Part shown: positions 1-5,159 of the stretch, one piece after another
How the letters are laid out: every line of letters starts with the position of its first letter
Numbering within the stretch: position 1 is the first letter of the stretch
Source: Actinomycetes bacterium
GTDB lineage: Bacteria; Actinomycetota; Acidimicrobiia; Acidimicrobiales; SZUA-35
DNA length: 5,794 nucleotides
Assembly (NCBI GenBank): GCA_024227975.1
Contig: JAAETV010000550.1
Span: 1 to 5,794 of the forward strand
Direction of reading: 5' to 3'
Position numbers and translations under genes: made by a program
The notes under the pieces: model-generated
Database searches by the model: none
The model's input: only the letters and a program-made list of their open reading frames with translations
Told to the model about the DNA's origin: nothing

Positions 1-750
1 CAGCCGAGGCATTGTGGGCGCCGGCAACCGGTTCGGCACGTCGGCCACATCGCCAACGAGGCTGATGTCCTGATCCAGGCCGTTGAAGATCGCCGCCAGC
101 ACCGATCCCGTGACGATGGCGACAACCAGGCCCATGGCGCCGAGGCGGGTGCGCCGCAGGGTCAAGATCAAGATGATGGTTACCGTCCCGACGACCACGG
201 TCGGGACGTCGACGCGCCAGAAGTGGAACACGACATCGAAGGCCCGACCCAGACGATTGGCCGCCTCTGAGTCATAGGCGGTGAAGTCGCCGAGCTGGCC
301 CAGCACGATGTTGATCCCAACGGCGCTGATGAAGCCCGCCATCACCGCGTTGGGAACGAATCGCAAGACCGCCCCAGCTCCCGCCAGGCCCGCAGCCACC
401 ATAACAACCCCGGTCAGTAGGGAAAGCGTGACCAGTGCACCAGTTGGATCATCGAACGAATCGATGTCGACGTCGGCCACGATGATGGCCATGGCTCCCG
501 TTCCCTGGACGGCCATGAACGTGGTGCTGGTGGCAAAGGCGGCCGAGGTGACCCCGAACATGTAGGCATAGAGCCCGGCCACCGGATTGATGCCGGCCAG
601 CAACCCGCTGGCGAGCCCATCGGGCACGCTCTCGACACCGAGCACGACCGCCGCTTTGGCGTCGGCTCGCACCGTCGCCTTGTCAACACCGAGCCTCGAC
701 AGCTTCATGCTCGCTCGCAGTTTGGCGATCAAAGTGCGCACGCTGGTCAT
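1..750 (-). CDS. SulP family inorganic anion transporter, N-terminal part (C-terminus outside window)
   Basis: This encodes the first 250 residues of a SulP-type membrane transporter, a family that moves sulfate, bicarbonate or related anions; the substrate cannot be told from sequence. Residues 39-66 carry the family's first-helix region (VESVPDGLASGLLAGINP, then GLYAYMFG). Residues 81-92 (VQGTGAMAIIVA) match the third-helix segment, and residues 132-152 hold the PNAVMAGFISAVGINIVLGQ block. Further hydrophobic segments lie near 106-126, 184-198 and 205-222. Full-length members are about 500 residues or more, often with a C-terminal STAS domain, so the rest lies beyond the left edge. The start is the ATG whose first base is 750: AGGAG sits 7 nt upstream and an in-frame TGA lies further upstream. 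It is divergent from the AI-2E gene and shares its 178-nt control region. Family assignment is firm; anion specificity is unknown. Confidence 0.93.
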   Translation of the reverse strand, partial: MTSVRTLIAKLRASMKLSRLGVDKATVRADAKAAVVLGVESVPDGLASGLLAGINPVAGLYAYMFGVTSAAFATSTTFMAVQGTGAMAIIVADVDIDSFDDPTGALVTLSLLTGVVMVAAGLAGAGAVLRFVPNAVMAGFISAVGINIVLGQLGDFTAYDSEAANRLGRAFDVVFHFWRVDVPTVVVGTVTIILILTLRRTRLGAMGLVVAIVTGSVLAAIFNGLDQDISLVGDVADVPNRLPAPTMPRL

Positions 751-840
751 GCTCCGGCTCCTGGACCCGGACGTCAGAACGACGTCCCATCTGGCTCAAC
801 GTAGGCCTCCGCAGAGGACTGGGATCCACAATCATGGATG

Positions 841-855
841 ATCACCCGGGTGAAC
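841..855. promoter_or_regulatory. Conserved 15-bp palindromic site, copy A
   Basis: Reads ATCACCCGGGTGAAC on the plus strand; the perfect palindromic core TCACCCGGGTGA spans 842-853. It lies in the divergent SulP/AI-2E control region, with its centre 97.5 nt from the SulP start and 81.5 nt from the AI-2E start. The same 14 bases recur at three other places in this window, all intergenic. A second CCCGGG follows at 858-863. Inferred to be an operator for an unidentified dimeric DNA-binding protein. Confidence 0.7.
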
Positions 856-873
856 AGCCCGGGGATTCTCCTT

Positions 874-902
874 GGGTCATCCTAGTCATGCCAGGATGAC
901 CC
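874..902. repeat. Perfect 10-bp inverted repeat upstream of AI-2E gene
   Basis: GGGTCATCCT (874-883) and AGGATGACCC (893-902) are perfect inverted repeats separated by 9 nt, ending 26 nt before the AI-2E start codon and 16 nt before its ribosome binding site. There is no T-tract, so it is not a standard terminator. It could be a second operator or a stem-loop in the 5' leader that affects translation or mRNA stability. The symmetry is directly visible; the role is inferred. Confidence 0.6.
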
Positions 903-928
903 GGTAGGTCGAAACACCGGAGTGATTC

Positions 929-2038
929 ATGTCGGACACGAATGTCGAGGAAATGACTCCACCGATGCCCCGGGGCCTGAACGTCTTGCTGACTCTGGCG
1001 GCCGGCATCATCGTCGTCGCTGGCATCCGTGCCTTCTCCGGCACGGTGGGCCCGGTATTCCTGGCTTTCGTGGTGGTGGTCTGCGTGTATCCGATTCGAG
1101 ATGTGCTGACCCGGCGGGGAGCACCAGGTTGGGCTGCCACTGTGGCATTGTCCCTGGCCGCCTTTGGTGTCCTGGCCGCCGTACTTGGAGCGTTGATCTG
1201 GAGTGCCTCAGAGCTCGCCGGGCTGGTGACGAGCGATGAGTACTCGGGTCAGCTCCAGCAGGCTCAGGAGGACATCGCCGACCTGGCAACCGAGCTGGGA
1301 GCCAGCGGTGGTGATCTGGAGAATGCGGTGGACTCCATCGACCTGGCCTCCGTAGCGGGCCAATTGACAGCGGCCCTCTCTGGGATCCTGGGGGTATTCA
1401 GTGCCCTTGGCGTGCTCGTGCTGACGCTGGTGTTCGTCGTGCTCGACGCTGGCAAGTTCTCTGAGAACCTGCGCCATGTGGCCACCGAACGACCTGCCAT
1501 AGCTGAGGGTCTTGGGAACTTCGCCTCCACCACCCGTTCCTATTTCGTCGTCTCGTCAATCTTCGGTCTCATCGTCGCCATCTTCGACACCGTGGCCCTG
1601 TTTGCCCTTGGGATTCCACTAGCCCTCGTGTGGGGATTGTTGTCGCTCATCACCAACTACATCCCGAACATCGGATTCGTGATCGGCCTCGTTCCTCCGA
1701 CCCTGCTGGCCTTCCTCGAAGGTGGCTGGTCGCTTGCCCTGTGGGTGATCATTATCTATAGCACCCTGAACGTGATCATCCAGTCCGTCATTCAGCCGAA
1801 GTTCGTCGGGGATGCAGTTGGCCTCTCAGTGACGTTGACCTTCGTGTCGCTGCTCTTCTGGGGATGGGTACTGGGCCCACTCGGGGCTCTACTCGCTGTT
1901 CCATTGACGCTGTTGGCCAAGGCCTTGCTGATCGACATCGATCCGACAACCCAATGGGCCTCTCCCCTCATCGCCCTCGATCGACGGCCGCCTCCCGAAT
2001 CTCTACCCTTCGCCGGTCAATCCGACTCCGGTGAGTAG
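929..2038 (+). CDS. AI-2E family transporter (PerM/YdiK-like membrane protein)
   Basis: This 369-residue polytopic membrane protein belongs to the AI-2E family, named after the E. coli autoinducer-2 exporter. Members also include sodium/proton antiporters, so the substrate here is open. Hydrophobic segments lie near residues 18-38, 40-54, 69-92, 149-173, 204-229, 230-265, 268-285 and 300-335. The non-membrane stretch at 97-145 is the variable loop typical of the family. Family hallmarks are ITNYIPNIGFVIGLVPP (241-257), QPKFVGDAVGLS (289-300) and WGWVLGPLGALLAVPLT (311-327). Length is normal. The start ATG has GGAG 6 nt upstream. The C-terminal tail (about 337-369) is hydrophilic and proline-rich. 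The last 22 nt overlap the convergent downstream gene, leaving no room for a terminator between them. Upstream lie the palindromic site at 841-855 and a long inverted repeat. An overlapping plus-strand frame starting at 922 is a shadow. Confidence 0.93.
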   Translation: MSDTNVEEMTPPMPRGLNVLLTLAAGIIVVAGIRAFSGTVGPVFLAFVVVVCVYPIRDVLTRRGAPGWAATVALSLAAFGVLAAVLGALIWSASELAGLVTSDEYSGQLQQAQEDIADLATELGASGGDLENAVDSIDLASVAGQLTAALSGILGVFSALGVLVLTLVFVVLDAGKFSENLRHVATERPAIAEGLGNFASTTRSYFVVSSIFGLIVAIFDTVALFALGIPLALVWGLLSLITNYIPNIGFVIGLVPPTLLAFLEGGWSLALWVIIIYSTLNVIIQSVIQPKFVGDAVGLSVTLTFVSLLFWGWVLGPLGALLAVPLTLLAKALLIDIDPTTQWASPLIALDRRPPPESLPFAGQSDSGE

Positions 2039-2724
2039 GTGCCTCCAGAGTCGGTCCCATCTTCGTGAGCCAGTTGACCCTGGACCCGGAGGACCAGGAT
2101 GCTCACCACCAGGACCCAGATCGGGAAGCTCAGCCGGAACGCCCGGACCGATGGTCCGCCGATCACCAGTGTTAGCGAGACGGCATAGGTGAACCAGACC
2201 AGCCAGCGGGGCATGGCCTCGGTTCGCAACCAGATCGTGCCCGACGAGAACATGAAGACGCCCGCCATCCGCAGGATGATGACGCCACCAATGACCTTGA
2301 CCATCGACATGGCGAAGATGAACCCTCCGGAGCCGGCCCATGTAGCTGGAGCGGCCTCATGGCTGGCAAGGACTGCCCCGAGGACTGCCGCCCAGACGAA
2401 GAGACTGCTGAGGAACAGTAAGCCACTGCCAAGGAACAGGGTCGAGAAGAACTGGTCTTCGAGCGCTCCGAGTTGATCACGAATCACACCCATGAACCAC
2501 AAGAAGGCGATCCCGGCGAATGGCACCAGAGCGACGGCCAGTGAGACCTGAACCGGTCGCTCGACCAACCAATCTGACTCGTAGGGCTCGCTGAAAGGGA
2601 TGGAGAGCTGAACGAGTGCCATGCTCGTCCCGGTGAGGAGGGCGAAGATGATGCCGGCGTAGGCGGCCACTCGCGGTGTACGAAGGCGTTCGCGGGTGAG
2701 GGAATGAGCCGGGTCAGACGCCAT
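2017..2724 (-). CDS. Uncharacterised six-helix membrane protein
   Basis: A 235-residue integral membrane protein. It resembles a broadly distributed but unnamed actinobacterial family that I recognise by pattern only, through the VIRDQLGALEDQFFSTLFLG segment (80-99) and a later TIWLRTEAMPRWLVWF stretch (163-178). Hydrophobic segments lie near residues 20-40, 60-80, 92-120, 133-158, 172-190 and 197-213, followed by an acidic, Ser/Gly-rich cytoplasmic-type tail. No catalytic motif is visible and I assign no function. The ATG at 2724 is the first possible start because an in-frame TGA lies 12 nt upstream; its ribosome binding site is weak. It lies 42 nt downstream of the lipoprotein gene on the same strand, and a possible promoter with a palindrome falls in that gap. 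The 3' end overlaps the AI-2E gene by 22 nt in convergent orientation, so the two transcripts should be complementary at their ends. Confidence 0.85.
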   Translation of the reverse strand: MASDPAHSLTRERLRTPRVAAYAGIIFALLTGTSMALVQLSIPFSEPYESDWLVERPVQVSLAVALVPFAGIAFLWFMGVIRDQLGALEDQFFSTLFLGSGLLFLSSLFVWAAVLGAVLASHEAAPATWAGSGGFIFAMSMVKVIGGVIILRMAGVFMFSSGTIWLRTEAMPRWLVWFTYAVSLTLVIGGPSVRAFRLSFPIWVLVVSILVLRVQGQLAHEDGTDSGGTYSPESD

Positions 2725-2739
2725 GGTCGCGGCCCATCA

Positions 2740-2765
2740 CGGTGGCCACCGACCACAGTATTATC
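2740..2765 (-). promoter_or_regulatory. Possible promoter -10 element plus 12-bp palindrome
   Basis: On the minus strand, GATAAT (2765-2760) is one base from the consensus -10 hexamer. TGCCAA 18 nt upstream is at best a weak -35. Transcription would begin near 2753, about 30 nt before the start codon at 2724. Right at that point lies the perfect palindrome CGGTGGCCACCG (2740-2751), where a bound repressor could block transcription. This would let the six-helix membrane gene be expressed separately from the lipoprotein gene. It differs in sequence from the four-copy palindrome. Inference from position and sequence only. Confidence 0.35.
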
Positions 2766-2766
2766 G

Positions 2767-2967
2767 TCATAGAGGCGCCCGGTTTGGCAGATCCGACTGC
2801 TGGCCCTGATTCTCGGGAGTGAGGTCGGAGAAGTCCTCATCGTCTTGGTAGCAACCAGTGACCGCGAAGGCCGACAAAATGACCGTCAATGCTCCCATGC
2901 GGAATCGCCCTGAAAACCGTTGTGACGCTGACGATCGCATCCCTGAACCAGTGCTGTTTCGGTGCAT
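2767..2967 (-). CDS. Small putative lipoprotein
   Basis: A 66-residue product with a Sec-type lipoprotein signal: an Arg-rich N-region (to about residue 23), hydrophobic core MGALTVILSAFA (24-35), and lipobox AVTGC ending at Cys39. After lipid attachment the mature peptide would be only 28 residues, acidic at first (CYQDDEDFSD) and then Gln/Asn/Pro-rich, so it would be a tiny surface-anchored peptide of unknown role. The start is uncertain. ATG 2967 gives the longest form; ATG 2940 and ATG 2898 are alternatives, and 2898 has AGGG 9 nt upstream but leaves almost no charged N-region. Centre-to-start spacing from the palindrome at 3017-3031 equals that of the Bax inhibitor-1 gene if 2967 is used, which favours 2967. 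It may be co-transcribed with the membrane gene 42 nt downstream. Most larger ORF callers would miss it inside a longer overlapping frame. Confidence 0.68.
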   Translation of the reverse strand: MHRNSTGSGMRSSASQRFSGRFRMGALTVILSAFAVTGCYQDDEDFSDLTPENQGQQSDLPNRAPL

Positions 2968-3016
2968 AAGCAAATCGTGGCCAAGCGACCGACTCCTGGC
3001 AATGCTTGGGATCGTC

Positions 3017-3031
3017 TTCACCCGGGTGAAC
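3017..3031. promoter_or_regulatory. Conserved 15-bp palindromic site, copy B
   Basis: Reads TTCACCCGGGTGAAC on the plus strand; here the palindrome extends to 14 bp (3017-3030). It lies in the 116-nt gap between the Bax inhibitor-1 gene's 3' end and the lipoprotein start. The centre is 56.5 nt from the lipoprotein ATG at 2967. It is downstream of the putative terminator of the previous gene, as expected for a promoter element of the lipoprotein gene. Confidence 0.7.
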
Positions 3032-3050
3032 TCCTGTGCACCTCGGGGCG

Positions 3051-3076
3051 GAAGAGAAAGGAGCGCACCGGCGCCC
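3051..3076 (-). terminator. Probable intrinsic terminator after Bax inhibitor-1 family gene
   Basis: Reading the minus strand, a stem GGGCGC / GCGCTC with loop CGGT (3076-3061, one G-U pair) is followed by a pyrimidine run containing six T residues, CTTTCTCTTC (3060-3051). It begins 8 nt after the stop codon at 3084. The stem is short and the T-tract interrupted, so efficiency may be modest. It would separate this gene from the lipoprotein gene downstream. Confidence 0.5.
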
Positions 3077-3083
3077 ATCGTTC

Positions 3084-3890
3084 TCAGCCGCGAGCTCGAA
3101 AGACCCAGGCGAGCAGCCGCAGCATCTCCAAGTAGAGCCAGACGAGTGTCACCATCAGACCGTAGGCCGAGTACCACTCCATGAATTTCGGTGCACCGGT
3201 GGCCACACCTCGCTCGATCCGAGCGAAGTCCAGCGTCAGGCTGAGGGCGGCCAGGATCACCGCCAACCCACTGACCACGGCACCGATGGCCTGGAACTGG
3301 TCGCTGTAGAGCCAGCCCCAATTGAAGATCGAGAGCACGCCAACAAATAGGTACAGCAAGACAAGCCCACCGAGAGCAGCGGTGACACCGAAGGCCATTC
3401 GCTGTGACGGGCGGACGATACGAGTGGCGTACAGCACGAGGGCGACAGTGAACACACATCCGGTGGCCAAAACTGCGGCCCCCACGATCCCCTCGGTCTG
3501 GGCGTCGTACGCAGCCGAGATGGCGCCGAGCACGTAGCCCTCCAATAGGGCGTAGACCGAGCCACCAATCGCTGCCCTTCTAGGGTGCATCGACACGAAG
3601 AAGCCGACCAGCAGGGCCCCGATCGACACCAACCAGAACCCGCCGGGGATGGTGACCGTGGTGTTCCCGGTCCCGGACCCTATGTCGACGGCTACTGGCT
3701 CCGTGGCCGACGCCCAGCCCCAAGTGCCGCCAACAACCACCAATGCAAGCAGAATCAGGGTCTTGAACGCCGTCCCCCCAGCGGTCATCGTCGCCGTTGC
3801 CGGCTGGCTCGGGGCCAGGTACTCGGCCACGCTCTCACTATTGAAGGCGGGATTCCCGCTCGAGAGAGCTGACGAGTGTGACATGGTCAT
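3084..3890 (-). CDS. Bax inhibitor-1/YccA family membrane protein
   Basis: A 268-residue seven-helix membrane protein of the Bax inhibitor-1-like branch common in actinobacteria. Related proteins have been linked to ion leak, or in E. coli YccA to FtsH protease modulation; the role of this branch is not established. Hydrophobic segments lie near residues 42-60, 84-101, 106-128, 134-158, 167-189, 201-221 and 239-263. The clearest family signature is C-terminal: DFARIERG (221-228), then PKFMEWYSAYGL (234-245) and VWLYLEMLRLL (250-260), with conserved acidic and Arg residues. The N-terminal tail (1-40, with GNPAFNSES and MTAGGT) is also typical. The 61-83 loop between helices 1 and 2, Thr/Gly-rich, seems longer than usual. 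The ATG at 3890 is bounded by an in-frame TAG 9 nt upstream; ATG 3884 is an alternative, and neither has a strong ribosome binding site. The palindromic site at 3940-3954 lies just upstream. Confidence 0.92.
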   Translation of the reverse strand: MTMSHSSALSSGNPAFNSESVAEYLAPSQPATATMTAGGTAFKTLILLALVVVGGTWGWASATEPVAVDIGSGTGNTTVTIPGGFWLVSIGALLVGFFVSMHPRRAAIGGSVYALLEGYVLGAISAAYDAQTEGIVGAAVLATGCVFTVALVLYATRIVRPSQRMAFGVTAALGGLVLLYLFVGVLSIFNWGWLYSDQFQAIGAVVSGLAVILAALSLTLDFARIERGVATGAPKFMEWYSAYGLMVTLVWLYLEMLRLLAWVFRARG

Positions 3891-3939
3891 GGCACGACGC
3901 TAGTTTGACGCTGCTTGGGTCGAAAGAGGGTGCCGGGCC

Positions 3940-3954
3940 ATCACCCGGGTGAAC
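3940..3954. promoter_or_regulatory. Conserved 15-bp palindromic site, copy C
   Basis: Reads ATCACCCGGGTGAAC on the plus strand; the perfect core is 3941-3952. It lies in the 113-nt gap between the Cys-repeat protein gene's 3' end and the Bax inhibitor-1 start. The centre is 56.5 nt from ATG 3890, the same as copy B to ATG 2967. The flanks differ from those of copy B, so only the 15 bp are shared rather than a duplicated promoter. Confidence 0.7.
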
Positions 3955-3984
3955 AACCGGCCTATCGCCCGCTCCCTACCCCCT

Positions 3985-3998
3985 GGCGAGCCCTCGCC
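3985..3998 (-). terminator. Short GC hairpin after the Cys-repeat protein gene
   Basis: The inverted repeat GGCGAG/CTCGCC with a 2-nt centre folds as a 5-bp stem with a 4-nt loop, starting 5 nt beyond the stop codon at 4004. There is no T-tract, the following minus-strand sequence being G-rich. It may slow polymerase or protect the mRNA 3' end; calling it a terminator rests mainly on position. Confidence 0.25.
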
Positions 3999-4003
3999 GT
4001 TGA

Positions 4004-4723
4004 TCAAAGCGGCATGGCGGCGAGGATCGCCACCGTCACCTCGATGTGTCGGCGGACGGTATTGGCGTCTTGTTGCTGTTCGACACTGAATGTGCAGTAC
4101 CGACCGAGGGCGATGAAGTGGAGAGGAGACGAGGCAGTCGGGACGCAGGTGCCGGCGAGCACGTCGGCTGTCGCCAGGCCGCCGGCCTCTACCTCAGCCA
4201 CCGCGAACTCCACGCCGAACATCGCTTCGGTGGCGACGGTCATTACCCCCTTCGACCTTGCTACCAGCACGAAAAGGGTCTGGTCGAAGCTACCGGCCTC
4301 GCCGTTCAGTCGCATGCTTCGAGCCCGCAACTCGCACGTGCCCGTTACCTTGGCCACGAAGGTCGGGGGATCAATCGACTGGGGGGAGCACGGACCCGCT
4401 ACCGCGTTCACCACTACCTGGGCCCCTTCGATGCTCGGGATGGAGACGGCGAACTCATGGTTCACCTGGATCAGCCGTGGGGCGACAGCTCCAGGAGCAC
4501 CAGACCCGTCCGACGGCGCTCTCACCGAGCTGACGTCTTCTGACGGGGTCGACAACGGCTTGCTCGAGGTGACTCTCTGAGGCTGGGAATCCCTCAAATC
4601 GAGATGAGGCAGTACGAGCAGCACTGCGAACACGATCACTACCACTCCGACCAGGCCGCGTATTCGCTCGACTCGGACCTCAGCGTCTGATGGCGGGCCC
4701 ACCATCAGCAACTCTCGGTCCAT
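4004..4723 (-). CDS. Single-pass membrane protein with two degenerate Cys-pair repeats
   Basis: A 239-residue protein I cannot assign to a named family. The short cytoplasmic N-tail is followed by one membrane helix (about 23-40), a Ser/Pro-rich linker (41-85), and an exported region made of two repeats. Repeat 1 (about 90-156) and repeat 2 (172-236) both begin EFAV. Both place the first Cys 21-22 residues later, in an AG-(P/T)-C-x-P context (C112, C193), and the second Cys 17-18 residues further on (C130, C210). The spacing suggests one disulfide per repeat. The phrase YCTFSVEQQQDAN resembles the CTVTASQAGDANY-type phrase of bacterial Ig-like surface repeats, so an Ig-like fold is a reasonable guess. 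ATG 4723 is the longest start; ATG 4705 has GAGAG 6 nt upstream and may be the true one. The next gene upstream is 82 nt away on the same strand. Plus-strand frames here look like shadows. Confidence 0.72.
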   Translation of the reverse strand: MDRELLMVGPPSDAEVRVERIRGLVGVVVIVFAVLLVLPHLDLRDSQPQRVTSSKPLSTPSEDVSSVRAPSDGSGAPGAVAPRLIQVNHEFAVSIPSIEGAQVVVNAVAGPCSPQSIDPPTFVAKVTGTCELRARSMRLNGEAGSFDQTLFVLVARSKGVMTVATEAMFGVEFAVAEVEAGGLATADVLAGTCVPTASSPLHFIALGRYCTFSVEQQQDANTVRRHIEVTVAILAAMPL

Positions 4724-4805
4724 CCCACCGGCTCGTCAGTAGCGATGCAGGCCGTGTCACAGGGAGGCCATCGGATTCGCGCTCGGATAGTGGATTCGGC
4801 AGGTA

Positions 4806-5012
4806 TCAAACTCTCACGAACACGCCACTCGTTGAGCCGCCGATGAGTGAACTCACCAATATGCCGAGTGGTAGCGTTCCCCAATAGCCAAGCCCAACAC
4901 CCACATTGCCGAGGAATAGCATCAGTAGCCATGTGGCGGGAAAGGTTGTTATGAGCAGTACGAGACCGACGAACGCCAACCCCGTCAGCCCTGCAAGAAA
5001 ATCCTTAATCAT
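4806..5012 (-). CDS. Small two-helix membrane protein, unknown function
   Basis: A 68-residue, almost wholly hydrophobic protein. After MIKDF come one long or two closely spaced hydrophobic stretches (about 6-38, with a Pro in TTFPATW that may kink or turn it) and another at 44-60, ending in GVFVRV. No Cys, His or obvious motif is present. I do not recognise a family; small proteins of this kind may be membrane stress peptides or accessory subunits, but nothing here decides that. I chose ATG 5012 over the in-frame TTG 5021 because AAGGTGG (5028-5022) is 9 nt from the ATG but abuts the TTG. It may be the first gene of a two-gene unit with the Cys-repeat protein (82-nt gap). A copy of the conserved palindrome lies 139.5 nt upstream (centre to start). 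Confidence 0.6.
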   Translation of the reverse strand: MIKDFLAGLTGLAFVGLVLLITTFPATWLLMLFLGNVGVGLGYWGTLPLGILVSSLIGGSTSGVFVRV

Positions 5013-5021
5013 TTGTTCCAA

Positions 5022-5028
5022 CCACCTT
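5022..5028 (-). promoter_or_regulatory. Ribosome binding site deciding the start of the small membrane gene
   Basis: AAGGTGG on the minus strand, one base from the AAGGAGG consensus, is separated by 9 nt from ATG 5012. It touches the in-frame TTG at 5021, so that TTG is an unlikely start. Confidence 0.55.
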
Positions 5029-5144
5029 CCAGGTCAGTAGAGGGAGCACATTCTCTGCTCAGGGTGTCCAAGGACGAGATTGTGGCTTCCCACGGTCGTG
5101 ACGGTAACAGCATGGATCGTAGCCGCCAAGCCCCTACCAGCCCA

Positions 5145-5159
5145 TTCACCCGGGTGAAC
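5145..5159. promoter_or_regulatory. Conserved 15-bp palindromic site, copy D
   Basis: Reads TTCACCCGGGTGAAC on the plus strand, with a 14-bp perfect palindrome (5145-5158). It is between divergent genes: the centre is 139.5 nt from the small membrane gene start (5012) and 188.5 nt from the chosen EEP start (5340). Either gene, or both, could be its target; both distances are longer than for the other copies. Confidence 0.68.

Follow-up and report, generated by a model that had tools for sequence, protein, structure and literature searches.

The stretch from position 1 to 5,794 of contig JAAETV010000550.1 of an uncultured member of the Acidimicrobiales (assembly GCA_024227975.1, SZUA-35), referred to below as the window, contains four near-identical palindromic sites, each located between genes and oriented toward a minus-strand transcription unit at a nearly constant distance from a -10-like box. 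With moderate confidence, these sites could be regarded as landing sites of one dimeric helix-turn-helix factor, which most likely activates the four units facing them.

Palindromic Sites of the Window

Exact copies of TCACCCGGGTGA were found by pattern count at positions 842, 3018, 3941 and 5146, and no additional copies, allowing up to two mismatches, occur elsewhere in the window. The count expected from base composition is 0.00064 against four observed, and none of 200 dinucleotide shuffles contained four or more copies, even at two mismatches. The 15-mer WTCACCCGGGTGAAC (starts at 841, 3017, 3940 and 5145) heads the list of direct repeats and is the sole four-copy family listed. An Rfam search of the window gave no match.

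The intergenic gaps that carry a site are 178, 116, 113 and 198 bp long; the remaining three junctions are gaps of 42 bp and 82 bp and an overlap. Genes were called from the list of open reading frames (ORFs), and overlapping ORFs crossing a site (e.g., 2767–3459 on the minus strand) were taken as spurious. The initial annotation of this DNA had described four near-identical dyads, improbable by chance, with one copy in each gap longer than 100 bp. The pattern count and the shuffles bear out the first two statements, and the gap lengths agree with the third, which presumes the uncertain start of the nuclease gene at TTG 5211 (a later start would make the gap longer). Judged by these counts, the dyad is a real, non-chance, operator-like element of putative promoter regions.

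Such copies could also belong to a short interspersed palindromic repeat, spread by copying and devoid of a regulatory role. The copies are indeed intergenic and nearly identical, and on the promoter-distal side the likeness of sites 1 and 3 extends four bases past the 15-mer (18/19 positions). However, the likeness of sites 2 and 4 ends at the 15-mer, and a repeat of this kind would not be expected to show the promoter spacing described below, which makes this origin highly improbable.

Orientation and Distance to -10-like Boxes

Read on the minus strand, all four copies are GTTCACCCGGGTGAW and point each time toward a minus-strand unit: SulP, the lipoprotein with the 235-aa protein, Bax inhibitor-1 (BI-1), and the 71-aa with the 239-aa protein. 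In every copy, the conserved 8-bp half GTTCACCC forms the side distal to the minus-strand gene. Downstream of sites 1–4, a -10-like hexamer follows at an offset of 37, 37, 37 and 38 bp, respectively (Table 1).

This spacing was evaluated by a search across all offsets, with random stretches of the window and dinucleotide shuffles of the same stretches as null models. The random-stretch null attains the observed score in fractions of 0.002 (no slack) and 0.0005 (slack of 1) of 2000 draws. Dinucleotide shuffles attain the minus-side score in 15/4000 and 1/2000 cases when the box is weighted, and in 4/4000 and 0/2000 cases when TA...T only is counted. The same test on the plus side is unremarkable, the shuffles attaining its score in 1611/4000, 1126/2000, 3805/4000 and 1629/2000 cases.

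Since the sites are oriented and keep a fixed distance to the -10-like boxes of minus-strand units only, the plus-strand AI-2E transporter gene is probably not their target. The sites had been annotated as flanking genes for SulP, an AI-2E transporter, a lipoprotein, a BI-1 family protein and a small membrane protein; this description holds for the minus-strand units and is not supported for AI-2E as a target, for lack of a fixed plus-side -10 box.

A chromosome-organising, segregation or replication site of the ParB or Noc kind, frequent between genes by happenstance, could produce one copy per 1.4 kb and one in each long gap, as a very frequent genome-wide mark would. Neither an orientation nor a fixed distance to a -10 box is needed for such sites, though, and a dense set was found in no sampled actinobacterial genome (class and phylum samples). 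This explanation is considered quite improbable.

Position of the Sites and Predicted Mode of Action

A dimer would bind the 12–15 bp palindrome, which consists of two abutting TCACCC half-sites. When the first base of the -10-like box is set as -12, the centre of the dyad falls at about -56.5 in sites 1–3 and -57.5 in site 4, so that the dimer would sit around -57 with respect to the predicted transcription start. This position would allow contact with RNA polymerase, at a promoter that combines a weak -35 box with a -10 box of the TAnnnT type. Class I activators generally occupy sites upstream of the -35 box. A dimer at -57 leaves the promoter core uncovered, which favours activation over repression.

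Alternatively, the same type of site could be used by a repressor, the upstream-bound dimer blocking or looping the promoter. Palindromic operators of the TetR, LacI and GntR type serve mostly repressors, and two of the four sites sit between divergent genes. BldD is described as a repressor of sporulation genes (PMC4151990). Nevertheless, a centre near -57 overlaps neither the -35 nor the -10 box in any of the four units. A fixed spacing combined with a fixed orientation is also more typical of activators. Repression is therefore judged unlikely, and activation by one dimeric factor is retained as the preferred reading.

An ATG or GTG codon lies 12–13 nt past the first base of the -10-like box in all four units, an arrangement equalled by one of 20,000 shuffles; an ATG at exactly 12 nt, seen in two of the four units, is attained by 30 of 20,000. 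In BI-1 (3890) and the lipoprotein (2967), the box-spaced codon is the ATG of the gene itself and lies exactly 50 nt from the promoter-proximal base of the site, so that both mRNAs would be leaderless. In SulP (790) and the 71-aa gene (5093), the box-spaced codon begins a short ORF (35 and 19 codons, respectively), which could be translated as a leaderless leader ORF. Leaderless transcripts and small proteins are described as common in mycobacteria (PMC4633059).

The division of the BI-1 gene from site 2 by a terminator-like hairpin (a consensus match) speaks for the activator reading, as does the identity of the half-site with that of the activator BldM (PMC4125116). Several observations weigh against this reading. 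A sigma-70 consensus scan reported no promoter at the four sites, its single match in the window lying elsewhere. The -35 boxes assigned by eye (lipoprotein, TTGCCA; 71-aa gene, TTGGCG; BI-1, TTCGAC) are weak, and none could be recognised by eye for SulP. A plus-strand terminator-like hairpin (845–863, consensus scan) overlaps site 1. No regulator gene was recognised in the window. The -10 spacing was first spotted by eye and tested afterwards, and the start-codon test was likewise post hoc. Further points of the same kind, drawn from relatives and genome samples, are given below.

Comparison with Known Operators

Among published operators, the best match to the half-site is apparently the BldM Group I palindrome TCACcCgnncGgGTGA of Streptomyces, which is bound by a homodimeric activator (PMC4125116). 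The likeness comprises the half-sites TCACCC/GGGTGA, the palindromic arrangement and the location in actinobacterial promoters. In BldM Group I sites, however, the half-sites are separated by 4 bp (16 bp in all) instead of 0 bp, and the BldM targets are developmental genes. On the plus strand of the window, the palindromic pattern TCACCC-N4-GGGTGA occurs 0 times and the N0 form four times. Because the spacer differs by 4 bp, the sites were rejected as members of BldM Group I despite the fitting half-sites.

The BldD box, given as TNAC(N)5GTNA (PMC4151990), resembles the sites in that TCAC...GTGA suits their half-sites. It differs in having 5 bp between the half-sites instead of 4, and BldD represses sporulation genes. 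Since TCAC-N4-GTGA is found at all four sites and TCAC-N5-GTGA nowhere in the window, a BldD box was rejected.

PolR sites GTTCACnnnnnGTTCaC are direct repeats said to resemble the PhoP box (PMC6754071). They share the GTTCAC half-site, which lies on the promoter-distal side here; the repeats are direct in PolR sites and inverted in the window. No second GTTCAC in register (5 bp between) was seen by eye in the site flanks, and a PHO box or PolR site was likewise discarded. Of the annotated equivalence between the half GTTCACC and an inverted PHO-box unit, the GTTCAC half and the inversion stand, whereas BldM Group I is the closer published match.

The operator consensus sequences of LexA, GlxR, Zur, IdeR, DasR and HspR are presumably dissimilar to the dyad. 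In the open-access literature searched, the dyad was not found described as a bacterial operator, in line with the earlier statement that it was not recognised as a known actinobacterial operator, and the exact 12-mer core appears in an unrelated context only. A shorter word of the dyad is present in synthetic DnaA-box oligonucleotides of Thermotoga (PMC10316083), and the titles of the other papers listed for such shorter words do not point to work on an operator. The set of sites is probably a new example of an operator, oriented and promoter-linked, for a probably activating dimeric regulator.

The 12-mer core is also found in viral DNA. A 113,552-bp IMG/VR record (G758, L238–L243) contains 21 copies, of which 12 lie outside crude gene calls. 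A phage-related nature of the sites could be derived from this record, in which 21 exact copies of the 12-mer stand against a control of 0. Yet the phage palindrome is longer (TGTTCACCCGGGTGAACA is common to 21/21 copies and GTGTTCACCCGGGTGAACAC to 14/21), its copies have no -10 box at a fixed offset, and among at least 120 viral stretches listed, multiple copies occur in the stretch of just one other record (L184), which has two. Moreover, the viral scan selected for the word itself, which makes a chance meeting plausible. No distant matches of a piece of the phage record were found among annotated phages. The phage palindromes are probably a separate, coincidental use of the same word, and a phage-related origin of the sites is the least probable explanation, extremely so.

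Occurrence of the Sites in Relatives and Genome Samples

Conservation of the site upstream of orthologous SulP and BI-1 genes, proposed as a check in the initial annotation, was not borne out: the exact 12-mer is absent from six loci with BI-1 relatives (L002–L006, L043) and from nine loci with SulP relatives (L262–L270, of which L270 is truncated before its start). These 15 loci belong to distant relatives (56–73% protein identity), so the missing site is weak evidence against the activator reading. In one of them (L003), the BI-1 gene lies directly behind a relative of the 235-aa gene, and its promoter may be located further upstream.

A scan of relatives' genomes, the other check proposed there, likewise revealed no enriched set. 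The 12-mer occurs in 200 of 395 genomes of the class sample (at most seven per genome), and the 14-mer in 33 of 396 genomes of the phylum sample (at most three strand hits). In two largely overlapping order samples, the 14-mer was detected in 42 of 248 and 48 of 288 genomes (at most four strand hits). The absence from all these samples of any enriched genome, or of anything near the density of the window, also speaks against the preferred reading; it means that the set is either restricted to a lineage outside the samples or local.

In the order sample of 248 genomes, TCACCCGGGTGAAC greatly outnumbers its reversed control (53 vs. 1 strand hits), which weighs against a background reading, with the reservation that the control contains GGGCCC and its codon-usage match is not strict. 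In 48 fetched loci with the 14-mer (L072–L101, L244–L261), 38 copies fall within crude ORF calls and 10 fall beyond them, the latter count being overstated because these calls omit ORFs with a third-position GC content below 0.7. No shared gene set was seen around the outside copies, as judged from the sequence at six of the ten (L073, L074, L075, L076, L250 and L259) and gene calls for five.

In a genome of the same order (G855), GTTCACCCGGGTGAT is located at L250:1503, immediately ahead of a gene assigned by eye to the MalT-like LuxR-family regulators, and a TAGGGT box lies at a distance of about 17 bp. This site was set aside as support for the spacing, since its -10 spacing differs. Genome G005 was considered as an enriched genome (56 one-mismatch matches vs. 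1 in the control) and rejected because two are exact and the listed variants are mixed; its matches are read as the background of a GC-rich genome. The pattern TTCAC-N4-GTGAA occurs one to six times per genome in ten relatives (control 0–3), and six of the ten have three to six matches with a control of 0. Each of the three copies inspected (L306, L307 and L308) falls within a called ORF, and one is situated at the end of a contig.

Genes and Other Features of the Window

The features of the window are collected in Table 1.

Table 1. Sites, genes and predicted signals of the 5,794-nt window.
Feature	Coordinates	Strand	Basis
SulP-family transporter, extends beyond window	1..750	-	PF00916, E 1e-27
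Candidate leaderless 35-codon leader ORF, overlaps SulP start	683..790	-	ATG 13 nt past -10 start; predicted
-10-like TACGTT (SulP), 37 bp from site 1	798..803	-	
Site 1, GTTCACCCGGGTGAT, facing SulP	841..855	-	Sequence match
AI-2E family transporter, divergent from SulP, not a predicted target	929..2038	+	PF01594
235-aa hydrophobic protein	2017..2724	-	No Pfam, no NCBIfam match
66-aa putative lipoprotein, predicted leaderless mRNA	2767..2967	-	ATG 12 nt past -10 start; lipobox read from sequence
-10-like CACGAT (lipoprotein), 37 bp from site 2	2974..2979	-	
Site 2, GTTCACCCGGGTGAA, facing small lipoprotein gene	3017..3031	-	Sequence match
Terminator-like hairpin after BI-1, upstream of site 2	3061..3076	-	Consensus match only
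Bax inhibitor-1/YccA family protein, predicted leaderless mRNA	3084..3890	-	PF12811, E 1.8e-57; ATG 12 nt past -10 start
-10-like TAGCGT (BI-1), 37 bp from site 3	3897..3902	-	
Site 3, GTTCACCCGGGTGAT, facing BI-1	3940..3954	-	Sequence match
239-aa protein with few relatives	4004..4723	-	Protein search
71-aa small membrane protein	4806..5021	-	TTG 5021, or ATG 5012 preceded by AAGGTGG
Candidate leaderless 19-codon leader ORF (GTG), upstream of small membrane protein	5034..5093	-	GTG 13 nt past -10 start; predicted
-10-like TACCGT (71-aa gene), 38 bp from site 4	5101..5106	-	
Site 4, GTTCACCCGGGTGAA, facing small membrane protein gene	5145..5159	-	Sequence match

Most products of the units appear to be membrane or exported proteins, as judged from Pfam names or from hydrophobic stretches recognised by eye. 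The lipoprotein and 235-aa genes are probably co-transcribed (42-bp gap), as are probably the 71-aa and 239-aa genes (82-bp gap). The 71-aa protein has a weak SCO4225-like NCBIfam match, under the cut-off of that family. No Pfam match was obtained for the 235-, 239- and 71-aa proteins and no NCBIfam match for the 66-, 235- and 239-aa proteins; the longer ORF enclosing the lipoprotein gene (2767–3459) has no Pfam match either, and the lipoprotein is named by its lipobox only. Pfam names the nuclease gene as Exo_endo_phos.

Among the best 120 matches, the closest named non-identical relatives are from metagenome-assembled genomes (MAGs) of Acidimicrobiales and Acidimicrobiia (69–70% for BI-1, 67% for AI-2E). 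Database entries named 'Actinomycetia bacterium' contain an identical BI-1 and an AI-2E fragment of 99% identity. For the 239-aa protein, a search restricted to relatives sharing short exact words yielded one relative besides itself (75%). Comparison of the window with plasmids gave four records, each matching no more than 7% of the window at 66–73% identity.

In another Acidimicrobiia MAG, the gene directly upstream of BI-1 (L003:2119–2781) encodes a relative of the 235-aa protein with 30% identity; from this adjacency, the 235-aa protein family and BI-1 may work together. A perfect 10-bp inverted repeat, GGGTCATCCT-N9-AGGATGACCC, occupies positions 874–902, past site 1 and ahead of the AI-2E start, and is a candidate second operator or leader hairpin of AI-2E.

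Implications for Gene Control in Acidimicrobiia

The dyad was originally proposed as the operator of an undescribed dimeric regulator of envelope genes. What stands of this proposal is an operator-like dyad beyond chance expectation, which is oriented and linked to predicted promoters; AI-2E as a target and, in the distant relatives compared, conservation upstream of orthologues do not. Little was found in the open-access literature on regulons, binding motifs or transcription factors of Acidimicrobiia and Acidimicrobiales.

On a more speculative view, which is doubtful at present, an undescribed global activator of these uncultured Acidimicrobiales would act on zero-spacer BldM-like half-sites near -57 and drive membrane-stress genes as leaderless mRNAs or via leaderless leader ORFs. 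At the density seen in the window, such a factor could control much of the genome.

The predicted transcription starts fall on ATG or GTG codons, which offers a direct test of the start positions. If the activator reading is true, the sites would give access, at the sequence level, to gene regulation in Acidimicrobiia and would tie Bax inhibitor-1, SulP and small lipoprotein and membrane protein genes into one regulatory unit.

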